Below are positions 2,437 to 55,854 of a stretch of 64,000 nucleotides of DNA, piece by piece; position 1 is the stretch's first letter; each line of letters begins with the position of its first letter. This stretch comes from Floccularia luteovirens (Eukaryota > Basidiomycota > Agaricomycetes > Agaricales > Squamanitaceae). The position numbers were made by a program, and so were the translations under genes. The stretch lies in contig VSJF01000011.1 of NCBI GenBank assembly GCA_009739215.1, positions 930,001 to 994,000 of the forward strand, written 5' to 3'. The notes below the pieces were generated by a model, which did not search any database, was not told where the DNA came from, and was given only the letters and a program-made list of their open reading frames with translations.

Positions 2437-2971
2437 TCTTTTGTTTGTCAGGAAGTTTAAAACATCAAACTGGTTGATGTATTTGTATCTAATGTATCCA
2501 TTGATTCATCTGAGCTGACAAGGTCTGTGTTGCGCTATTCTCCACAGACCTAGTGCTAACTTACATAGCTCGGCTACGAAACTCCACGAAACCGTGGCTA
2601 GTGGTTTCCGAAAATAGTTGTGCACTGCTTCGAAACAGCATGGTGTGCATAAGAGTGTTCGCCGTCTAGACACCGTTTAAAAGGGATACAGCATGGCTGG
2701 GTTGGGTTGGCAAATTCGCGTTTAGTACACTTAGTTCGGTGAAAAATGGTGTAAATGCACCACTCACCACGGGTTCACGATGTCAATCCTTCGTTCTAAG
2801 TAGGTGCTGTACCAACAACTCACCTGAATTTTCAGTTGGTGTTGTATGCTGGGCATTGCCAAGCCAACTGGCCATAACATGGACATCTCGATCACAAACA
2901 GGACGCACAACTCGGATTTGGAATTAAAACAACCGTTCAAAAATTCTCTTGCTGCGTAAACATTTATGTTA
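2437..2971. other. Intergenic between MFS and DNA glycosylase genes
   Basis: Only short overlapping frames without recognisable motifs. It contains the 5' flank of the MFS gene and the 3' flank of the glycosylase gene. Confidence 0.5.
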
Positions 2972-3823
2972 TCAACTCCTCGTCCTCCTGCCTTCGACGA
3001 ACTCTCGCAACACACACCCTATCTCAAGTTTCCGAACTACTTTACAACCTTTACAACATTTGCCATGCTTAACCATCGCCATGTGTAATGCGTATTTTAA
3101 CTCATCTGGTACCCTCGCCTCTAGATGGGCTTGTGCAAGCACCCTATTTGTTCCAACCGGCAACCACCCAAGAGCCGTGGATATGCGAAATACATGGGTA
3201 TCTACTGCAAACGCGGTGCGTCCGAGTGAGAACAGAAGCACACATGCGGCACTTTTTGGGCCAACACCAGGTAGGGCAAGTAGTTCGCTTGAGATTTCTG
3301 CATTGGTGCGGTGCACATTTTCATCTGCAAGATGCTGCAAGGAGTAGGATCCGTGCCGAGCATTCACAGCAACGAGTACGTCTTGCAACCTACGGGACTT
3401 AATCCTAGCCAATCCTGAAGGCCGGAGGATGTCCTCGAGGGTAGAGATTGGCGCGGTGGCAATTGCTTTGAAGTTCAAATGGCCAAAAGCTGTATCGAGA
3501 GCGGCTTGAGCATGTGCTGCATTACGAGAAGATGTGTGTTGCGCCAGTACAGTTCCAATCACGGCGGCAAGGACATTCTGGACGTTACCACAGGTACTAG
3601 CAGCATTTCTGACCACAGAGCTGGAAGGGGTACGTGCTGGAAACTTTGTATTGGTACAAGATAACTGAGAATTCGTTAGGAGATTCAGCACGAGGTGTGC
3701 TTCTGCCGAAGTTGGGAGAGGGTGTGTAGGAAATGGAGATGTGTTGGTAAGGGAGTAAGTGGAATGTGTTTTGAGCTTCTTGGAAGTCTGTGAGATCTTT
3801 GGTTCACGTTGATTCGATGGCAT
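2972..3823 (-). CDS. HhH-GPD base-excision DNA glycosylase (endonuclease III-like)
   Basis: Single-exon gene, 283 residues, starting at the ATG at 3823. Residues 82-100 (NVLAAVIGTVLAQHTSS) match the first helical part of the HhH-GPD fold. Residues 181-192 (LLALPGVGPKSA) are the helix-hairpin-helix and 206-212 (AVDTHVF) the GPD-type loop. Lys190 and Asp208 fall where endonuclease III has its catalytic Lys and Asp, so a bifunctional glycosylase/AP lyase acting on damaged pyrimidines is likely. The first 70 residues are Ser/Thr/Lys-rich, as in a nuclear or mitochondrial extension. The C-terminal cysteines (KCCKGC, later GCVL) do not have the C-x6-C-x2-C-x5-C spacing of the bacterial iron-sulphur loop. 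A MutY-type enzyme is less likely given the Lys. Confidence 0.85.
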   Translation of the reverse strand: MPSNQREPKISQTSKKLKTHSTYSLTNTSPFPTHPLPTSAEAHLVLNLLTNSQLSCTNTKFPARTPSSSVVRNAASTCGNVQNVLAAVIGTVLAQHTSSRNAAHAQAALDTAFGHLNFKAIATAPISTLEDILRPSGLARIKSRRLQDVLVAVNARHGSYSLQHLADENVHRTNAEISSELLALPGVGPKSAACVLLFSLGRTAFAVDTHVFRISTALGWLPVGTNRVLAQAHLEARVPDELKYALHMAMVKHGKCCKGCKVVRKLEIGCVLREFVEGRRTRS

Positions 3824-14827: not shown

Positions 14828-17207
14828 TTAGAATCGAGGGGAGATTCTTTGAGTGCCAGAGGAATTTCTTTCACCGCCTGGTGGAACAGTACTAGCGCCA
14901 AACGAGGTACGGTCGGGATTGATTACAACATCATTATCAAAGGAGATGAACCTGCCAGCGGAACGTAATGGATGGACACTAGGCCTCACCTCTGTCTCCA
15001 GTTGATCCCAATCATCCCCCTCATATACCACATTTGAGTCTTCCAGTTGTCTGTAGGCGTGCCAATCTCGTTCAAACCAGGCTTCACTAGATGCCGGTAG
15101 ATCATTCTTAGGTGATTGGGCACCTGGTAAAGATGGATGCATGGTGTGTTGACTGTGCTGACCAGCCCAGCCCGATAAAGAGGAGAAAGATGAGGATGGA
15201 ACAACATCTGGTTGTTGAGTGGGTGATACAGGGTTGTGGTAGTAGAACGAGTTATGCAGACCGGCTGAACCAGTCGACGGAGTGCTTGGTGAAATTATAA
15301 CTGGCGAGTTCAAAGGATTGACAGTAGAAGTTAGTTGTGGGAAAGTGGGGCCACTTTCGATGTCACTTTTAGCGTCGGCAAATGGATCGATGACAATAGT
15401 CATAAGACCTTGTCTCTCTGGGATGTTTGACCAATTGATTGCATGGCTTCCGTTCCGTGGTGATGGTATAGACTCGCCTCCGTAATGCTATATTCGTGGA
15501 AAATCAGCATTCTATTAATTGGCAGAATGAAATTGGATCTACCGATCTATAATCATGAACGAACTGTTCATCGTTAACTTCTTTGTAGCCCATGTTCTCC
15601 ATTGTTACGGCTGTATTTTGCGAATCTGGACAATACGGATCAGAAACCGGCCCGGGGATAGGAGCTTCCACATTTGCAGAAGGAATCCAAAGATATTGTT
15701 TATCTTGAGCTGCATCATATCTTCTCCCAAGTTCATCTCCTTGCCACGTGTCTTCAAAAACATGTAGGGAATTTTGTGTTGCAGAAGTTTCGAGCGGGAA
15801 AGAAACTGTATCCCGCCTGGGATGTCCTACTGTTGACGTGGTCACTTCTGATCTGGGACCAGAGGCGGGTCCGATGTTTCCTGTCGTAGATTCTTGGATG
15901 GGTTGGGTTGGATCAGGATCGGGTACACTGGTAGGTGTATCGGGCTGCTGCTGTCTCGAGTCGGTCGCGGGTGCTGACAGAGAGCGTTTGAACATATGAG
16001 TTAATGGGACTTTTGACATAAATGGGACTTTGGTCGCTTCAGAATCACGGTTTACAGTTCTGCGGCGTTTTTTGCGATTTCGGTTTGTTACTGAATCATG
16101 AGATAGTATACGCTTAGAAGAAGTCGCAATTGATGAGGTCGCAATGTTGACTGGCACTTCATTCGCGTCGTTTCCACTACTTGGACTTGAAGGCTTTGAG
16201 GTGGATGAGATAGCTATTCGAGAACTTGACTCCCCCGAGCCCTTTCGACCCTTGCCCTCCATATTCAACTTATCACCTTCCCATTCTAACAAGGCTATCT
16301 CTAATTCATCACCCCGTTTTCCTTCCACAAGAAAATCGGCTATCTTAGCGCATCTTGTCTCTTCTATACTCATCTCTTCTTTGGTTTGCGCTTTTCCTTT
16401 CCCCTTTCCCTTTCCCTTACCCTTTCCTTTCTCCTTCCCTACATTTCCAATATTGTCCTCACTCCCCAGATCTCGAGATTCAGTTTGATCATCCTGAGCG
16501 ACATCCTTGGGTCTACTCCGGGATGTCCGGTTCTTCCTTGTAGATCCGCCATCTTTAATCTTGAGCTTTGCTGTTGCATTAGATCCAGGTCGGAAGCGCC
16601 AGTGTGGATATAATCTTCTATGCTCAGCCTGAGCAATTACAGCTTTCGCTTCCCATTCTTCCCTCTCCTCACGCGGAAGAGCCTTCCATAACATGCCTAA
16701 AGAGCGTTAAACGACAATCATGTAATTACACTTACAATATAGCTCACCAATTATTTTTGAAAGAGTGCTATGATTACCTTCAACCTTGCCCGGAACATTC
16801 TCGCTACGTATGAATGATGATCGAAATAGTATGAATGCATTTGGGGGCCTAGGAATGTAAGAGGCGTCGCGTTTCTTGCCGTGTGTTCGGTGTATGGCAG
16901 GTGATGCAGGAGGCGTGGTGACAGGGTTACTTGATGACTCAATTATCGCACTGGACTCGAGGTTCACATCGTGGGAAGGTTCAGAGCCAACGGCGGAGGC
17001 GTTTACATCGTTCGAATTAAAGGTATTGAAAGAGAAGGGAGTCATGTCTGTGAAGAATGTGTAGGTCATAGAGGGATTCGGATTGTCGACTAACGGTGGC
17101 ATGCCTATGAAATATTGAACTCATGAGAGACAAGGTAGGTGGGTGTACCCACCCTCGTCTTCCTCGCCGTCGTCCGGGGGCACATCATGCTCGCGGACGG
17201 GAGGCAT
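14828..17207 (-). CDS. HMG-box (MATA_HMG/ROX1-like) transcription factor 1
   Basis: Sequence-specific nuclear DNA-binding protein. Four exons (17207-17153, 17104-16748, 16696-15543, 15487-14828) total 2226 nt, or 741 residues. The start at 17207 (MPPVREHDVPPDDGEEDEG) is joined by a 48-nt intron to the second exon. The HMG box begins at YIPRPPNAFILFRSSF, passes VEGNHSTLSKIIG and continues after an intron with MLWKALPREEREEWEAKA and HRRLYPHWRFRP. After the box come a Lys/Gly run (KGKGKGKGKGKGKGK), a basic patch NRNRKKRRRTVNR that may be a nuclear localisation signal, and a long Ser/Pro/Thr-rich tail typical of a regulatory region. It is a paralogue of the gene at 48114-49850: same layout, and the box is interrupted at the same codon. 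Target genes and sexual or developmental role cannot be read from sequence. Confidence 0.9.
16391..16439 (-). repeat. Hexanucleotide repeat encoding Lys-Gly run
   Basis: Roughly 6-bp period (AAGGGA on the coding strand) within exon 3 of HMG-box gene 1, giving alternating Lys and Gly residues. It may be length-polymorphic. Confidence 0.8.
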
Positions 17208-34147: not shown

Positions 34148-35404
34148 ATGCTTTCAAGCCTATCTTCCTGGGTTTTCGGTCTTATCTCCCAAGTCCTTCA
34201 ACCTCAAGATGATCCCGAGTTACTCCCTACTATCATTACAGCAAAGGAAAAGGTGAGGTTTACCTTATATCTATGCATATATTTTATGATTCTGTTTCTG
34301 ACTTACTGACAGATACGTTCTGAATATCATGATATCCGGGATACTATTGTTTCAATGTCGAGACAATGCAACTTGTCACTAAATCCAACGACATATGATG
34401 TTGCATTCCACAATGCTTGCTGTTACGAGGCCCGAAGGAAGGGATATCCAATGGAAAGCTATCCTGGCATTCCATCTCTTCTTCCTTTCATTCCGGGAGG
34501 AGTTGTGATGGCCATCACCGCGTACGCACATCTTGAGGACGACAGGACCCGAATCTTTATCGCGTTATATACAGCATTTCTAATTTATCTTGATGATGCC
34601 TTCCAAAACGACATCGAATGTGTCGGCAGTTTCAATGCAAGATACATCTCCAAGCAACCACAACTAGACCCCGTCCTTAACTCGTTTGCATCGTTGCTTG
34701 ATGAACTCCCATCACTGTATAATCGCGTCGTGTCTAACATCATGGTCACATCTACACTTAATCTCGTGACCGCATTGTTACTGGAACACGAAACACAGGA
34801 TATGAAAGTCAGCAACCCAAATTTCTTTGTTTCCGTGTTCTAACCCTGATGGTACTTACCAGCTATCGTCTTATGCACATGGATACCCCACTTTTTCTCG
34901 TGTCATGTCTGGTGCTTCTGAGACTTACGCCCTCTTTGCTTTCCCCCGCGATATTCCCATAAAGTGTTACATTCAGGTAAGTTTCAATTGAGTATTACAG
35001 CATATTTACCTTGACTAAATTGGTTGCAGGCTATGCCGGAGCTGATGATGTTTATCAATAATGGAAAGTAAGTCTTCAGTTTTGCATTACTCGAGATCAG
35101 TGTCTAAATAACAGAAATTAATGATATCAGTGATGTCTTATCCTTTTATAAAGAAGATATTGCCGGGGAATCTGTTAATCGGGTCTCGACTACTGCAAGA
35201 TGTCTGGATCTTCCCAAGATAGAAGTCTTACGGCGCCTCGCGGACGATGCTGCGTCGTGTCATGCTCATGTTTTAAGAATTCTTGACCCATTTATCGAGG
35301 TCAAAGATGTCTTTCTCAAATTCAGTCAAGGATACGTCAGATTCCATACATCACTAGCAAGGTATAGGCTAAAGGAGCTTCTTCAATACCAATTTAATTC
35401 ATAA
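34148..35404 (+). CDS. Trichodiene-synthase-family sesquiterpene cyclase
   Basis: Class I terpene cyclase expected to cyclise farnesyl diphosphate with magnesium in the cytosol. Five exons (34148-34252, 34313-34807, 34863-34976, 35030-35067, 35131-35404) total 1026 nt, or 341 residues, close to the family norm. The metal-binding aspartate motif is LDDAFQND at 128-135: Asp129 and Asp130 are kept, but the fifth position is Gln133 and the next Asp is 135, so it is not a standard DDxxD. The second motif, NDVLSFYKE (251-259), is a canonical NSE triad (Asn251, Ser255, Glu259). Other family features are GIPSLLPFIPGGVVMAITAYAHL and GVTTARCL-like VSTTARCLDLPKIE. The likely partner is the P450 immediately upstream. 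The product cannot be predicted. Confidence 0.88.
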
Positions 35405-48113: not shown

Positions 48114-49850
48114 ATGCCAGCTGTACGCCTTACTCGTCGGCGACGCTCATCGCTTGCAGCTTGTAAGTTGTACACAAGCGTAAACAGCGATGGCAATTTG
48201 ACAGAAGTCTCTCCTTTGCAGTTACACCCGCAAAAGCAGGAATATATGGCATTCAACGTCCAGTAACGTTTGCGCCCAATGTGACACCCGTAACTTTTGT
48301 GGAGTCGGACGATACCTCTAGATCACCTACGCCTGAAGCTGGCTCACCCTCATCCGCTCTTTTCCCTCCATCCCAAGCGCCCGCCCCCGCTCCGTCGAGG
48401 AGACGTGCTCCCCCTGGAAAGAGAAGATCGATGGGATATATCCCCCGCCCTCCCAATGCGTTCATGCTCTTCCGTGCAGATTTTGTGCGCCAGAAGCATG
48501 TCCCTGGATCAATAGAGACCAACCACGGATCTCTATCGAAAATAATCGGTATGTATCTTATATGCTGTGTGTTTGAATTGTACATGTTATTTATGCATCA
48601 ATTCAGGAAACTGCTGGAGGTCGCTCCCTCTTGAAGAGAAGCGAGTCTGGGAAGTAAAGGCGAAGCATGCAAAGGCTGAGCACAAAGCTCAATATCCTGA
48701 GTATCGTTTCCGCCCCGTTCACAATAAGAACAAGGAAAAGAAAAAGGATAAGCCAACCACTACTGTTGAAGACGAGCGCCGCTGTGAGGAAGTTGCTCAA
48801 CTTCTTCTGGAAGGCAAGAAAGGTGATGAGCTGGCTGCTGCAGTTCGCAATTTGGATAGGATCAGATCGGCAACACCCGCCGTTCAACCTGTTCAACAAC
48901 CGTACAAGCATAGGCGCTCATCATCAGTTCCCCTTCCGAATGATTACTACCCCAATTACAGCAACATTGCTCTGCCTTCAGTCCCTTTCCTGGCTTCTAG
49001 TTCTCGTCCTATGTCTCCTGTTGGAACTATTTCTCGACAACAGCGGGCGATGCTCGGCCGTCGCCGCAGCTCCAGTGCACAGCCTAGTCTGATGAACAGA
49101 TCCTGGACCCTGCCAATGCCAACTATTCTGCAACGGGATCATTCTCCACTTCCGGAAGTAGATACATCTATATTTGAGCCCTCATTCATGAACAGCAACT
49201 ACTCATTCCCCACCCAAGAGACCACCAACCCACACCAACATCTTCAATCGTTTAATATAAGCGAACTCATGACGAGTCTTCCTCACGATCTTGATCCTTG
49301 CCAATCCGCTCCAAGAAATGGACCTTTAGATGGCATCGCACCTCACGATATGGTACCCATGTACAATGAATCACCTTCCCCCGGACACGATACTGGTATC
49401 GACAATATGTGTTGGCCATTATATGATCAAACCAATGCCTTCCAACAACAACAACCGCAACCTCAATCGCAATCGTCACATTCCTCCAGCACCTATTCTG
49501 GATCACCAGCAACATCAGAAGGATCTCTTCCGACCTTGCACGCGCCTAAGCCTCAGTTCGCTTCTGATCAGACACCCACATCAAGTATGTTTGATGAGAT
49601 GTGGAAAGGCGTCGGTGCTGGCGATGGCGACTTTGTGGACCACTCACAATTCTCGCAGGCGATTAACATTGGAATAGGCATCGATCTTGTTGGTCAACAG
49701 CAACACATGCTCCAGCATCAAGATCTGGAAGGATGTGGAATTAATGGCTATGATAACTTGTTTGATCAACATCCGCAGCTCCACCAACAACAACTTCAGT
49801 ACGAAAATGCTGGGTTCAGCTACGGATACAACGAAATTATTTCGCAGTGA
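48114..49850 (+). CDS. HMG-box (MATA_HMG/ROX1-like) transcription factor 2
   Basis: Nuclear DNA-binding regulator. Three exons (48114-48162, 48222-48548, 48607-49850) total 1620 nt, or 539 residues. A basic start MPAVRLTRRRRSS leads to a Pro/Ser-rich stretch, then the box: YIPRPPNAFMLFRADFVRQ, IETNHGSLSKIIG, intron, NCWRSLPLEEKRVWEVKAKHA, AQYPEYRFRPVHNKNKEKKK. After it, RCEEVAQLLLEGKKGDELAAAV parallels CAKIADFLVEGKRGDELEIALL of the gene at 14828-17207, so the two are related well beyond the box. The tail is Gln-, Ser- and Pro-rich (QQQQPQPQSQSSHSSS), typical of an activation region. The regulatory role is unknown. Confidence 0.92.
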
Positions 49851-52084: not shown

Positions 52085-52667
52085 ATGCGTCTCTTCGCTG
52101 TTTCCCTCGTCAGCTTGTCCACACTCCTTACTCTCTCTCTCGCCGCTCCCATCGTATGTCTTTCACTCCTTCATCAATGTTTAATCCTCTAATTATCCCC
52201 CATATTTCTAGACACAGAGCGGCTTGCTATCATTAAGATCATCGTTACCAATCCCCAAGATACCGGCACAGCCCCAGCCACAAGGCTTAAGACCACCACC
52301 CGACTGGAAGAGAGAACCCGAACCCGCTCCAGGCCCTGAAGACCAGAACGGGAGGAGAGAGCCCGCACCTCCTCATGCTTACTGGAAGAAAGATGCTTCA
52401 CCCCACGTTGTTCACTTGAGGGAACCCGCTCCTGGATCTCCCGGAGACCAGGACTGGAAGAGGGAACCTGAACCTGTTGCAGGATCTCCAAGCGACCAAG
52501 ACTGGAAGAGAGAGCCTGGATCACAAGGAAACCAGAATTGGAAGAGAGAACCCGGCCCTCCGAATGTCAACTGGAGGGAACCTGAGGCCAACCCTGGATC
52601 ACCAGGAAATCAGAACTGGAGGAGGGAGCCTGAGCCTGCTCCCGGACCACCCAATGTCAACTGGTAG
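52085..52667 (+). CDS. Secreted dibasic-repeat peptide precursor (Kex2-type), novel
   Basis: Two exons (52085-52153, 52212-52667) give 525 nt, or 174 residues. Residues 1-20 are a clear signal peptide (RLFAVSLVSLSTLLTLSLA) with AP next. A Pro/Gln-rich spacer follows to residue 55, then a run of short segments separated by basic sites: KR 56-57, RR 71-72, KK 82-83, R 93, KR 106-107, KR 122-123, KR 134-135, R 145, RR 160-161. Most segments start EP or EPEP and end in Trp: EPAPPHAYW, EPAPGSPGDQDW, EPEPVAGSPSDQDW, EPGSQGNQNW, EPGPPNVNW, EPEANPGSPGNQNW, EPEPAPGPPNVNW. Kex2 cuts after KR/RR, and a Ste13-type dipeptidyl peptidase removes X-Pro or X-Ala pairs, so the layout fits maturation into several small peptides. 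No membrane segment, CaaX end or known domain. A structural wall protein is the alternative. Confidence 0.82.
52366..52667 (+). repeat. Imperfect tandem coding repeats of the peptide precursor
   Basis: Repeated unit of about 27-48 nt centred on GACCAGGACTGGAAGAGGGA-like sequence (D/N-Q-D/N-W-K-R-E-P). The copies vary in length and in the residues before the Trp, which suggests duplication followed by divergence of the peptide cores. Confidence 0.8.
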
Positions 52668-54363: not shown

Positions 54364-55854
54364 TCAAATACCAACACTCATACCAATGTATCGATAAAAA
54401 TCAGCAACGAGGTACAAACTCCCTGCAAGTACAACGAGTTCTTGAACATTCTCCCCTTCCTTCCGCTGTTTCTGCTGTTGTTGAGAAACCCACTTCAAAG
54501 ACTCCGCCAGCTGTCCATCAGCGGGATCATCATCTTTAGCAATCCAAAGACTCGCATTGGGGGTTCGCTCTCGGATGACGACAGCCAGCTCTGAAGGGGG
54601 TACAGATTTCACCCAAGGCATGCCTTCTGGTGGTGTGAATCGTATAGCAGCAACGTTCACGTTGAGGGAGACTTTGGAACTAGTTCCGGACGGAAGTGTA
54701 GGGGGAAGGATTGGAGAGAGCGTTTGGACAGGTGTTTTTGGAGGTGAATGAGATAGAGAGAGTACGTATGTTATATTGAACGTCAGTTTGTTCGACCCGG
54801 TTGAGGAAGAGAGTAGGGAGATAAGATGTGTCACATAAGCACCCAATGTCATGGAAGATCCAGGATTGTGAGCCCCATCTGCTAACACTACAAGTGGCTC
54901 TTGTGGAGTAACGTCTTTGACTGTCAAAGTATGGAAAGACAATCGGCCAGCCCAACGAACAGCTTTGATACCTTTTGCAACGGATTCGGGTGTGATTTTA
55001 TTTTGTGTGGAAGGGTGTTGCTGAATTGCCGATATCAATGTTACCGCAGTACCCAAATTATCGAGTTGGTGTTCTCCGTATAATGGAAGAAGCGCTGGTA
55101 TGTTGTTTGGGAAACACGACAAGGATATATGGACAGGTTGCGGGGCAGGTGGTTGGAAGGACGTAGGTGACAATGTAAAGGATCCCAATGATGAACCTGA
55201 TCCATCGATACTTTCATCCCAGTCCCGTTTGGACGCTCTTTCCGCAAGAATGAGTTTGCCGCCAACTTCTTGTACGATCTTCCGGGTGACTTCGAGTACT
55301 TCAGGATATTTTTGAGGTCCCAAGATGAAGGGTTTGTCTTTCCTGGATATAGCTGCCTTTTCTTTCGTTATATCCGTGGGTGTCATCCCCAAGAAGAATT
55401 GATGATCCAAATCGACAGTTGTCAATGCAGATGCTATGATAGCACTATCCGGAATAATGTTCGTCGCATCTAATCGTCCACCCAATCCGACCTCGATCAC
55501 CGCGATATCAACGTTGAGTTCTTCGAAGATGTAGAGAGCAGTGAGAGTTAATATTTCGAAACTACTGAGTTTCGTATCATGTTCTTTATCAGCACGTTCA
55601 ACTTCAGTTCGTGCTTCTTTGTAGATGGTGGGTGAGACTGGTTCATTGTTGATAATGATACAATCGTAAACTGAGACGAGGTGTGGACTGTTGTAACGGC
55701 CAAATGAGAGCGAAGATTCGTGGATGATCGAGGAGATCGTTGCTGCTACACTTCCTTTCCCGTTCGTCCCTGCGATATGACAGGTTGGACGAGTGTAAGG
55801 TGGGAGGTGGGATACGAGCTGTTTCAATCTGTCTAGGCTGAGGTCAATTGACAT
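54364..55854 (-). CDS. FOL3: Dihydrofolate synthase / folylpolyglutamate synthase family
   Basis: Mur-ligase-type enzyme adding glutamate to dihydropteroate (or to folates) with ATP, in folate synthesis. One uninterrupted exon, 496 residues from the ATG at 55854 (MSIDLSLDRLKQLVSHL). The P-loop CHIAGTNGKGSVAA lies at 25-38, then RYNSPHLVSVYD, FEILTLTALYIF, EVGLGGRLDATN, and the second ATP/metal region DHQFFLGMTPTDITKEKAA. The C-terminal domain has YGEHQLDNLGTAVTL, AGRLSF and ADGAHNPGSS. No mitochondrial leader is apparent, and the overall pattern is closer to Fol3 than to the longer Met7-type polyglutamate synthase, but the two cannot be fully separated by eye. It looks intact, and it is intronless among intron-rich neighbours. 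Confidence 0.87.
   Translation of the reverse strand: MSIDLSLDRLKQLVSHLPPYTRPTCHIAGTNGKGSVAATISSIIHESSLSFGRYNSPHLVSVYDCIIINNEPVSPTIYKEARTEVERADKEHDTKLSSFEILTLTALYIFEELNVDIAVIEVGLGGRLDATNIIPDSAIIASALTTVDLDHQFFLGMTPTDITKEKAAISRKDKPFILGPQKYPEVLEVTRKIVQEVGGKLILAERASKRDWDESIDGSGSSLGSFTLSPTSFQPPAPQPVHISLSCFPNNIPALLPLYGEHQLDNLGTAVTLISAIQQHPSTQNKITPESVAKGIKAVRWAGRLSFHTLTVKDVTPQEPLVVLADGAHNPGSSMTLGAYVTHLISLLSSSTGSNKLTFNITYVLSLSHSPPKTPVQTLSPILPPTLPSGTSSKVSLNVNVAAIRFTPPEGMPWVKSVPPSELAVVIRERTPNASLWIAKDDDPADGQLAESLKWVSQQQQKQRKEGENVQELVVLAGSLYLVADFYRYIGMSVGI

Follow-up and report, generated by a model that had tools for sequence, protein, structure and literature searches.

The gene at positions 52085-52667 of the window (the whole stretch of 64,000 nucleotides analyzed, C3:930001-994000, in a genome of 27.0 Mb and 22 contigs) is probably best explained as a multi-copy precursor, matured by kexin, Kex1 and Ste13 activities into linear Trp-ended peptides that would serve as a non-mating signal. 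The parts of this reading differ in strength. The gene almost certainly encodes a precursor of the KEX2-processed repeat protein (KEP) class, and release of its peptides by Kex2 is very likely. Trimming of the leaders by Ste13 is likely, as is a linear and unmodified product. The weakest step, that the peptides are the fungus's own signal outside mating, is offered tentatively. The repeats, basic sites, Trp ends, dipeptide ladders and the kexin-like and DPP-IV-like genes are present in the sequence, from which splicing, secretion and each cleavage of the KEP protein are predicted.

Gene model and repeat units

The gene is on the forward strand, with an ATG at 52085 and a stop codon at 52665-52667, which confirms the span originally given for it. 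Two exons and a 58-nt intron were modeled, with a predicted product of 174 aa. Read without splicing, no frame of the three connects the signal peptide with the repeats. The acceptor CTAG at 52211 leaves nearly the entire pro-region in frame, and a branch-like CTAAT lies 23 nt before the end of the predicted intron. An alternative acceptor AG six bases further on removes two residues and keeps the pro-region nearly intact in frame; the seven other AG acceptors tried either truncate the pro-region (three) or cause a frameshift (four). Residues 1-20, the predicted signal peptide, are hydrophobic (GRAVY 1.71) with small residues at the end, as judged by eye and by hydropathy. An intron directly after the signal peptide was also read in the related loci of contigs C1 (by eye) and C2. 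The pro-region has single basic residues at 32, 39 and 50. The features are given below, with dots between leader dipeptides and > before the predicted core.

52085-52153, forward strand: exon 1, predicted signal peptide MRLFAVSLVSLSTLLTLSLA followed by the first residues API (from sequence and hydropathy)
52154-52211, forward strand: predicted phase-0 intron, 58 nt, GTATGT...CTAG
52212-52667, forward strand: exon 2, including the stop codon
52212-52307, forward strand: pro-region, residues 24-55, ending in PPPDW
52308-52313, forward strand: KR, predicted Kex2 site 1
52314-52352, forward strand: irregular unit EPEPAPGPEDQNG, without a final W
52353-52358, forward strand: RR, predicted Kex2 site 2
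52359-52385, forward strand: unit EPAPPHAYW, predicted product APPHAYW
52386-52391, forward strand: KK, predicted Kex2 site 3
52392-52418, forward strand: irregular unit DASPHVVHL, followed by a single R at 52419-52421
52422-52457, forward strand: unit EP.AP>GSPGDQDW
52458-52463, forward strand: KR, predicted Kex2 site 4
52464-52505, forward strand: unit EP.EP.VA>GSPSDQDW
52506-52511, forward strand: KR, predicted Kex2 site 5
52512-52541, forward strand: unit EP>GSQGNQNW
52542-52547, forward strand: KR, predicted Kex2 site 6
52548-52574, forward strand: unit EP>GPPNVNW, followed by a single R at 52575-52577
52578-52619, forward strand: unit EP.EA.NP>GSPGNQNW
52620-52625, forward strand: RR, predicted Kex2 site 7
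52626-52664, forward strand: unit EP.EP.AP>GPPNVNW, its W being the protein end (stop 52665-52667)

After PPPDW-KR there are nine segments bounded by KR, RR, KK or a single R. As the original prediction had it, most start with EP (8/9) and end in W (7/9). The two irregular segments are the unit at 52314-52352, which ends in G, and DASPHVVHL, which starts with DA and ends in L. The protein has seven dibasic sites and single R residues at 93 and 145. The seven pieces that follow the dibasic sites are 9-24 aa long, with Pro or Ala at position 2 in all seven and at position 4 in six. This agrees with the spacing that Umemura 2020 (PMC7329392) set for KEPs: three or more repeats, each 8 aa or longer and none above 100 aa, separated by KR/KK/RK/RR. 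All eight Trp residues directly precede a basic residue or stand at the C-terminus. The six regular leaders consist of whole X-Pro/X-Ala dipeptides, one to three in each, a feature that the original prediction had missed. Hydropathy marks the regular cores as hydrophilic (GRAVY -1.04 to -2.06); they contain no Tyr, and APPHAYW has one.

The order of the residues was compared with 100,000 shuffles of the mature part of the protein. In no shuffle did every one of the eight W precede a basic residue or stand at the C-terminus; dibasic sites were as numerous in five, X-[P/A] following basic runs in 140 and E-[P/A] there in none. The shuffles assume independent residues though the repeats share ancestry, so that these figures show order and not independent origins. 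The dipeptide phase of the six leaders recurred in 1/200,000 shuffles of the pooled letters, for leaders and ends that were picked post hoc. When the five W[K/R]REP signals were compared pairwise, codons were the same in 28 cases, synonymous in 18 and non-synonymous in 4 (all K to R); among the four GS-type cores they were the same in 23, synonymous in 11 and non-synonymous in 14. Because the repeat codons differ at synonymous places, the repeats did not arise by a recent duplication of DNA. Their DNA has drifted and the signals that it encodes have persisted, which agrees with the earlier proposal that the ends are maintained as processing signals and the cores vary.

Predicted maturation and enzymes in the genome

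The KEP protein would enter the secretory pathway, where kexin would cut after KR, RR and KK and probably also after the two single Arg residues. A Kex1-type carboxypeptidase would then strip the C-terminal Lys/Arg, and a Ste13-type dipeptidyl aminopeptidase would shorten the N-terminus by two residues per step. Since the leaders are exact dipeptide ladders, this trimming would give GSPGDQDW, GSPSDQDW, GSQGNQNW, GSPGNQNW and two copies of GPPNVNW, one behind a 2-residue and the other behind a 6-residue leader. Trimming would halt at G-S, which is neither X-Pro nor X-Ala, and at G-P-P, because DPP-IV-type enzymes are blocked when the cleavage point is followed by Pro. With these halts the length of the ladder (one, two or three dipeptides) would be immaterial, and the six units would converge on common cores, GS(P/Q)xxQ(D/N)W or GPPNVNW. 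The released products would be linear peptides of 7-8 residues with a Trp end; being short and rich in Pro and Gly, they would be expected to lack a fixed structure.

Putative enzymes for these steps were found in the same genome. A profile search gave one kexin-like locus (a P-domain match with an adjoining subtilase exon match) and one DPP-IV_N locus, counts that are lower bounds because the searches were run exon by exon. By eye, a hydrophobic stretch follows the P-domain in the frames of the first locus, and another lies upstream of the DPP-IV_N exons in the second. Membrane-bound Kex2 and Ste13 carry comparable hydrophobic segments. The DPP-IV_N profile also matches 5/14 prokaryote control genomes and P_proprotein 1/14, so that family membership is not enough to identify the enzymes, and the DPP-IV_N match is no proof of a Ste13. 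The Kex2/Ste13-type architecture proposed at the outset is supported by the basic sites, the ladders and the Trp ends, in a likely basidiomycete; by the hits of a neighbouring gene, the host is probably an agaric from the tricholomatoid part of Agaricales.

Comparable processing has been reported by Vogt 2022 (PMC9769878), where QMRPPSW and QYKAPSW were obtained when Pichia trimmed the STE13 motifs of KEP 490115 from C. cinerea. KEP peptides were still present in all Coprinopsis kex knockouts, from which those authors inferred redundancy (PMC9769878). Build-up of the precursor in a Kex2 mutant, as suggested originally, may therefore fail as a test.

Dikaritin (ustiloxin-type) precursors share with the window KEP a secreted, repeated plan with Kex2 sites, and the genome has three UstYa matches; it is nevertheless very improbable that the gene encodes a RiPP precursor of the dikaritin type, with UstY-like oxidases making its cores cyclic. 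Unlike dikaritins, the window KEP has ladders, and its six regular cores lack Tyr. Furthermore, no UstYa (DUF3328) gene lies in the window, which makes a cyclic RiPP unlikely; a single match shares the contig of the KEP gene, at a distance of ~963 kb, and C21 carries the remaining two. In the Umemura survey a nearby DUF3328 gene accompanies 103/1680 basidiomycete KEPs (PMC7329392). The RiPP-like character suggested in the original prediction was thus not upheld. The two C21 matches (C21:1114073-1115754) run in opposite directions ~1.2 kb apart, and a dikaritin-type cluster is possible there.

The linear, unmodified product is also to be weighed against a precursor of wall peptides with a structural or surface-active role, as in Ustilago Rep1, which would likewise be predicted as secreted and repetitive with kexin sites. 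Rep1-like repellents are hydrophobic and bound to the wall. The predicted regular products, of 7-8 residues and hydrophilic (GRAVY as above), count against such a role and against the surface activity proposed earlier, and Rep1, among the precursors examined by Le Marquer, has no STE13 ladders (PMC6339444). This alternative has very little probability.

Related precursors in this genome and other fungi

KEPs were defined by Le Marquer 2019 (PMC6339444), who found clear STE13 signatures in basidiomycete KEPs and proposed hormone-like roles, and were surveyed by Umemura 2020 (PMC7329392). Vogt 2022 (PMC9769878) described basidiomycete KEPs with STE13 motifs and a C-terminal Trp and detected such peptides, including SGVAADW, MSGVAADW, SGTGEASAADW and GPPAPSW in mushrooms or mushroom cultures. 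Trp-ended KEPs with STE13 motifs being in print, the window gene is a further example of a described class, and the claim that it is novel in kind falls. The KEPs of Vogt et al. (C. cinerea 490115; Pleurotus 1091723 and 1439342) have, like the window KEP, dibasic sites, XA/XP motifs and short linear W-ended cores, and a signal peptide, which in the window KEP is predicted; their products have been shown by MS. The cores of Pleurotus and of Lentinula 2599 end in DW, as some window cores do, with the AADW end shared by Lentinula 2599. In contrast, the window KEP has cores of two types, the regular ones preceded by ladders of one to three dipeptides, and its cores differ in sequence from those of the Vogt KEPs, a separation drawn from the cores rather than from the full proteins.

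Three further Trp-KR loci were found in the same genome, in C1, C2 and C16, with three W-[KR]R repeat patterns. The C1 KEP (L015 complement 2830-3081, reverse strand) has eight identical copies of the core DGRDW, the first after APVAEP and the others after VA, AA, EA or EAEA. The C2 KEP (L016:1786-3019, forward strand) has 16 copies of GSPDW and GGPDW. The C16 locus (L056:2060-2645, forward strand) has GSPDW/GGPDW-KR units, middle units that look degenerate, and the tail LDTNLD. The C1 and C2 KEPs end alike, in KR and a short tail ending in LD, and their first core is reached by a ladder from the assumed signal-peptide end, SP.VP.EP.VP.EA>GSPDW in C2 and AP.VA.EP>DGRDW in C1. The window KEP has neither an LD-ended tail nor this first ladder. 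All six matches of pattern 1 are in the C1, C2 and C3 KEPs (no control matches), as are ten of the 13 matches of pattern 3 (two control matches), and eight of the 14 matches of pattern 2 are in the C1, C2 and C16 KEPs (two control matches). The other matches were set aside by eye: for pattern 2, six (C1:2240951 and 2240993, C16:1474230 and 1968204, C20 and C21), mostly in G-rich DNA, and for pattern 3, three (C1:2240951, C18 and C19).

By predicted splicing, the C2 KEP reads as 14 exons in 1,234 bp. There is a signal-peptide exon, an exon of 8 residues and then 11 phase-0 exons of 27 nt (8/11), 48 nt (two) or 75 nt (one), each made of whole GSPDW/GGPDW-KR units. The introns are 51-59 nt long, with a branch-like motif 18-22 nt from the end in 11/13 and none there in the other two. 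The 27-nt exons are 83% alike and the introns 48%. Exon skipping could alter the peptide copy number of such a gene and still leave the frame intact. Neither the papers listed by the literature searches nor the text searched in the three KEP papers described a KEP in which each exon holds one repeat.

A search with the spliced 174-aa protein alone gave one relative among 2914 candidates, Termitomyces P0001 (E 7.3). A profile was then made of four sequences, the window protein, P0001, C2 and C1, the C1 and C2 rows having been spliced in this analysis. Scored against only the 7995 candidates that shared most words, it gave 46 proteins at E up to 10, P0001 itself and 45 further, with 28/46 (27 without P0001) at E up to 1e-3. 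The family is thus visible by the four-sequence profile and not by the single-sequence search. A named source was available for 23 of the 45, and we take 20 of these to be Agaricomycetes (among them Amanita, Arthromyces, Pleurotus, Panaeolus, Lyophyllum, Volvariella, Sanghuangporus, Lentinula, Tephrocybe, Termitomyces, Pholiota, Hebeloma, Suillus and Mycena) and three to be ascomycetes (Elasticomyces, Westerdykella and Physcia). P0140, from an Elasticomyces elasticus (ascomycete) record, has GSPDW-KR units and X-Ala leaders much like those of mushroom KEPs; contamination, convergence or transfer may account for this.

Over all 46 proteins, 227/267 pieces before a dibasic run end in W, D precedes W in 129/227, and Pro or Ala follows a dibasic site at positions 1-6 with fractions of 0.06, 0.66, 0.12, 0.44, 0.21 and 0.43; picking the candidates by shared words biases the W-KR share and positions 1-2, and positions 3-6 to a lesser degree. 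Pro/Ala at even positions is the phase that removal two by two would predict. Ladders of two or more dipeptides occur in 31/46 (30/45 without P0001), the other 15/46 lacking one of this length, and the core sequences differ much among the relatives.

P0001 (Termitomyces sp. Mi166) and P0122 (Amanita thiersii AMATHDRAFT_46935, 38% identity) have the same plan as the window KEP and are alignable with it over most of their length (pairwise BLASTP E 1e-11 and 1e-14, respectively). In both, as in the window KEP, cores starting with G follow EP/EA ladders, in P0001 with the leaders EPEA and EPEPEA. The cores are GTPGW, GPPGW and GSPGW in P0001 and GAPVQSW and GAPTRPW in P0122, compared with GSPGDQDW and GPPNVNW in the window KEP. 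In shuffles of P0001 an equal number of X-[P/A] after basic runs was unremarkable (15,167/100,000), and E-[P/A] recurred in 1/100,000. Searched against the genome of the window, P0001 gave no match; this search had no positive control and was blind to the related loci present there.

Possible roles of the peptides

In the preferred reading the Trp-ended peptides would act as a secreted linear signal between hyphae and not as a mating pheromone. Ascomycete alpha-factor precursors have a signal peptide, Kex2 sites, Ste13 dipeptide leaders and linear products, as is predicted for the window KEP, and differ from it in the core; the window KEP has, in addition, a likely basidiomycete host and an exon 2 without a Pfam match at E 0.01. 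This resemblance in plan, together with a partial HMG-box gene 2.2 kb upstream, would suit an alpha-factor-type sexual pheromone, which we regard as the least probable of the roles considered. STE3 receptor matches are on C22, C21 and C14 and none on C3. STE2 had no match in the genome, a weak argument given that the control genomes were also matchless. Basidiomycete mating pheromones are of the a-type according to Le Marquer (PMC6339444). The traits of that type, a C-terminal CaaX and linkage to STE3, are absent from the window KEP, whose mature part has no Cys and thus no CaaX, the STE3 matches being on other contigs. Basidiomycetes are said to mate by a-type pheromones only (PMC6339444), yet the window gene and, according to the profile, about 30 further proteins (30/45, counted by their ladders and not by signal peptides) have ladders of the alpha-factor style behind dibasic sites.

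A signal of the fungus's own has as its main competitor a role of the same linear peptides against other organisms, as an effector, repellent or antimicrobial acting on bacteria, animals or competing fungi. This is unlikely, but less so than the other alternatives. Vogt et al. favour a role in the biotic environment because their kep knockouts had no axenic phenotype (PMC9769878), and the strong variation of the cores between the proteins found here points the same way. On the other hand, synthetic KEP peptides failed to inhibit five bacterial strains (PMC9769878), and STE13 signatures are absent from the Rep1, cyclic-toxin and epichloecyclin precursors examined by Le Marquer (PMC6339444). The knockouts of six KEP genes in C. 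cinerea had no phenotype (PMC9769878), so a strong role in axenic growth is unsupported by known relatives of the window gene.

Signalling between hyphae might be organized around the ends of the peptides. Mushrooms would then have a non-mating peptide signalling on the alpha-factor assembly line, with a C-terminal (Asp/Asn)-Trp as the conserved message (GSPGDQDW, GSQGNQNW and GPPNVNW here; GSPDW, GGPDW and DGRDW from the three other loci); the remainder of the core could vary, and one receptor or importer family would read many precursors. This extension is speculative, and we give it a rather low probability. Qsp1 of Cryptococcus neoformans is also a short secreted basidiomycete peptide that is matured from a pro-peptide and has a signal role; it is described as matured extracellularly by Pqp1 and imported by Opt1, unlike the model proposed here. 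Qsp1 also ends in Trp. AADW ends are known from shiitake and oyster mushroom (PMC9769878). The function of the released KEP peptides has been posed as a question in print (PMC9769878), and the exact ladders found here predict peptide masses. After trimming, [M+H]+ would be 861.337 for GSPGDQDW, 891.348 for GSPSDQDW, 890.375 for GSQGNQNW, 859.369 for GSPGNQNW and 783.378 for GPPNVNW; with the leaders still attached the values would be, in this order, 1255.523, 1513.644, 1116.471 and 1496.640, and for the two GPPNVNW units 1009.474 and 1403.659. Four loci with related peptide ends in one genome are a well-delimited group that could be studied by synthesis, peptidomics and joint deletion.

Other genes of the window were also noted. 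The partial HMG-box gene upstream of the KEP gene (48167-49850, forward strand) scored 27.1 bits, above the cut-off of 25.4, and a second (15504-16706, reverse strand) scored 23.9 bits, below it. A frame at 34310-34843 (forward strand) had no Pfam match at 0.01 and looks like a trichodiene-synthase-type terpene cyclase. The neighbour at 54364-55854 (reverse strand), without a Pfam match, is folylpolyglutamate synthase-like by its hits, the best named ones being from Collybia nuda (63%), Lyophyllum, Tricholomella and other agarics.
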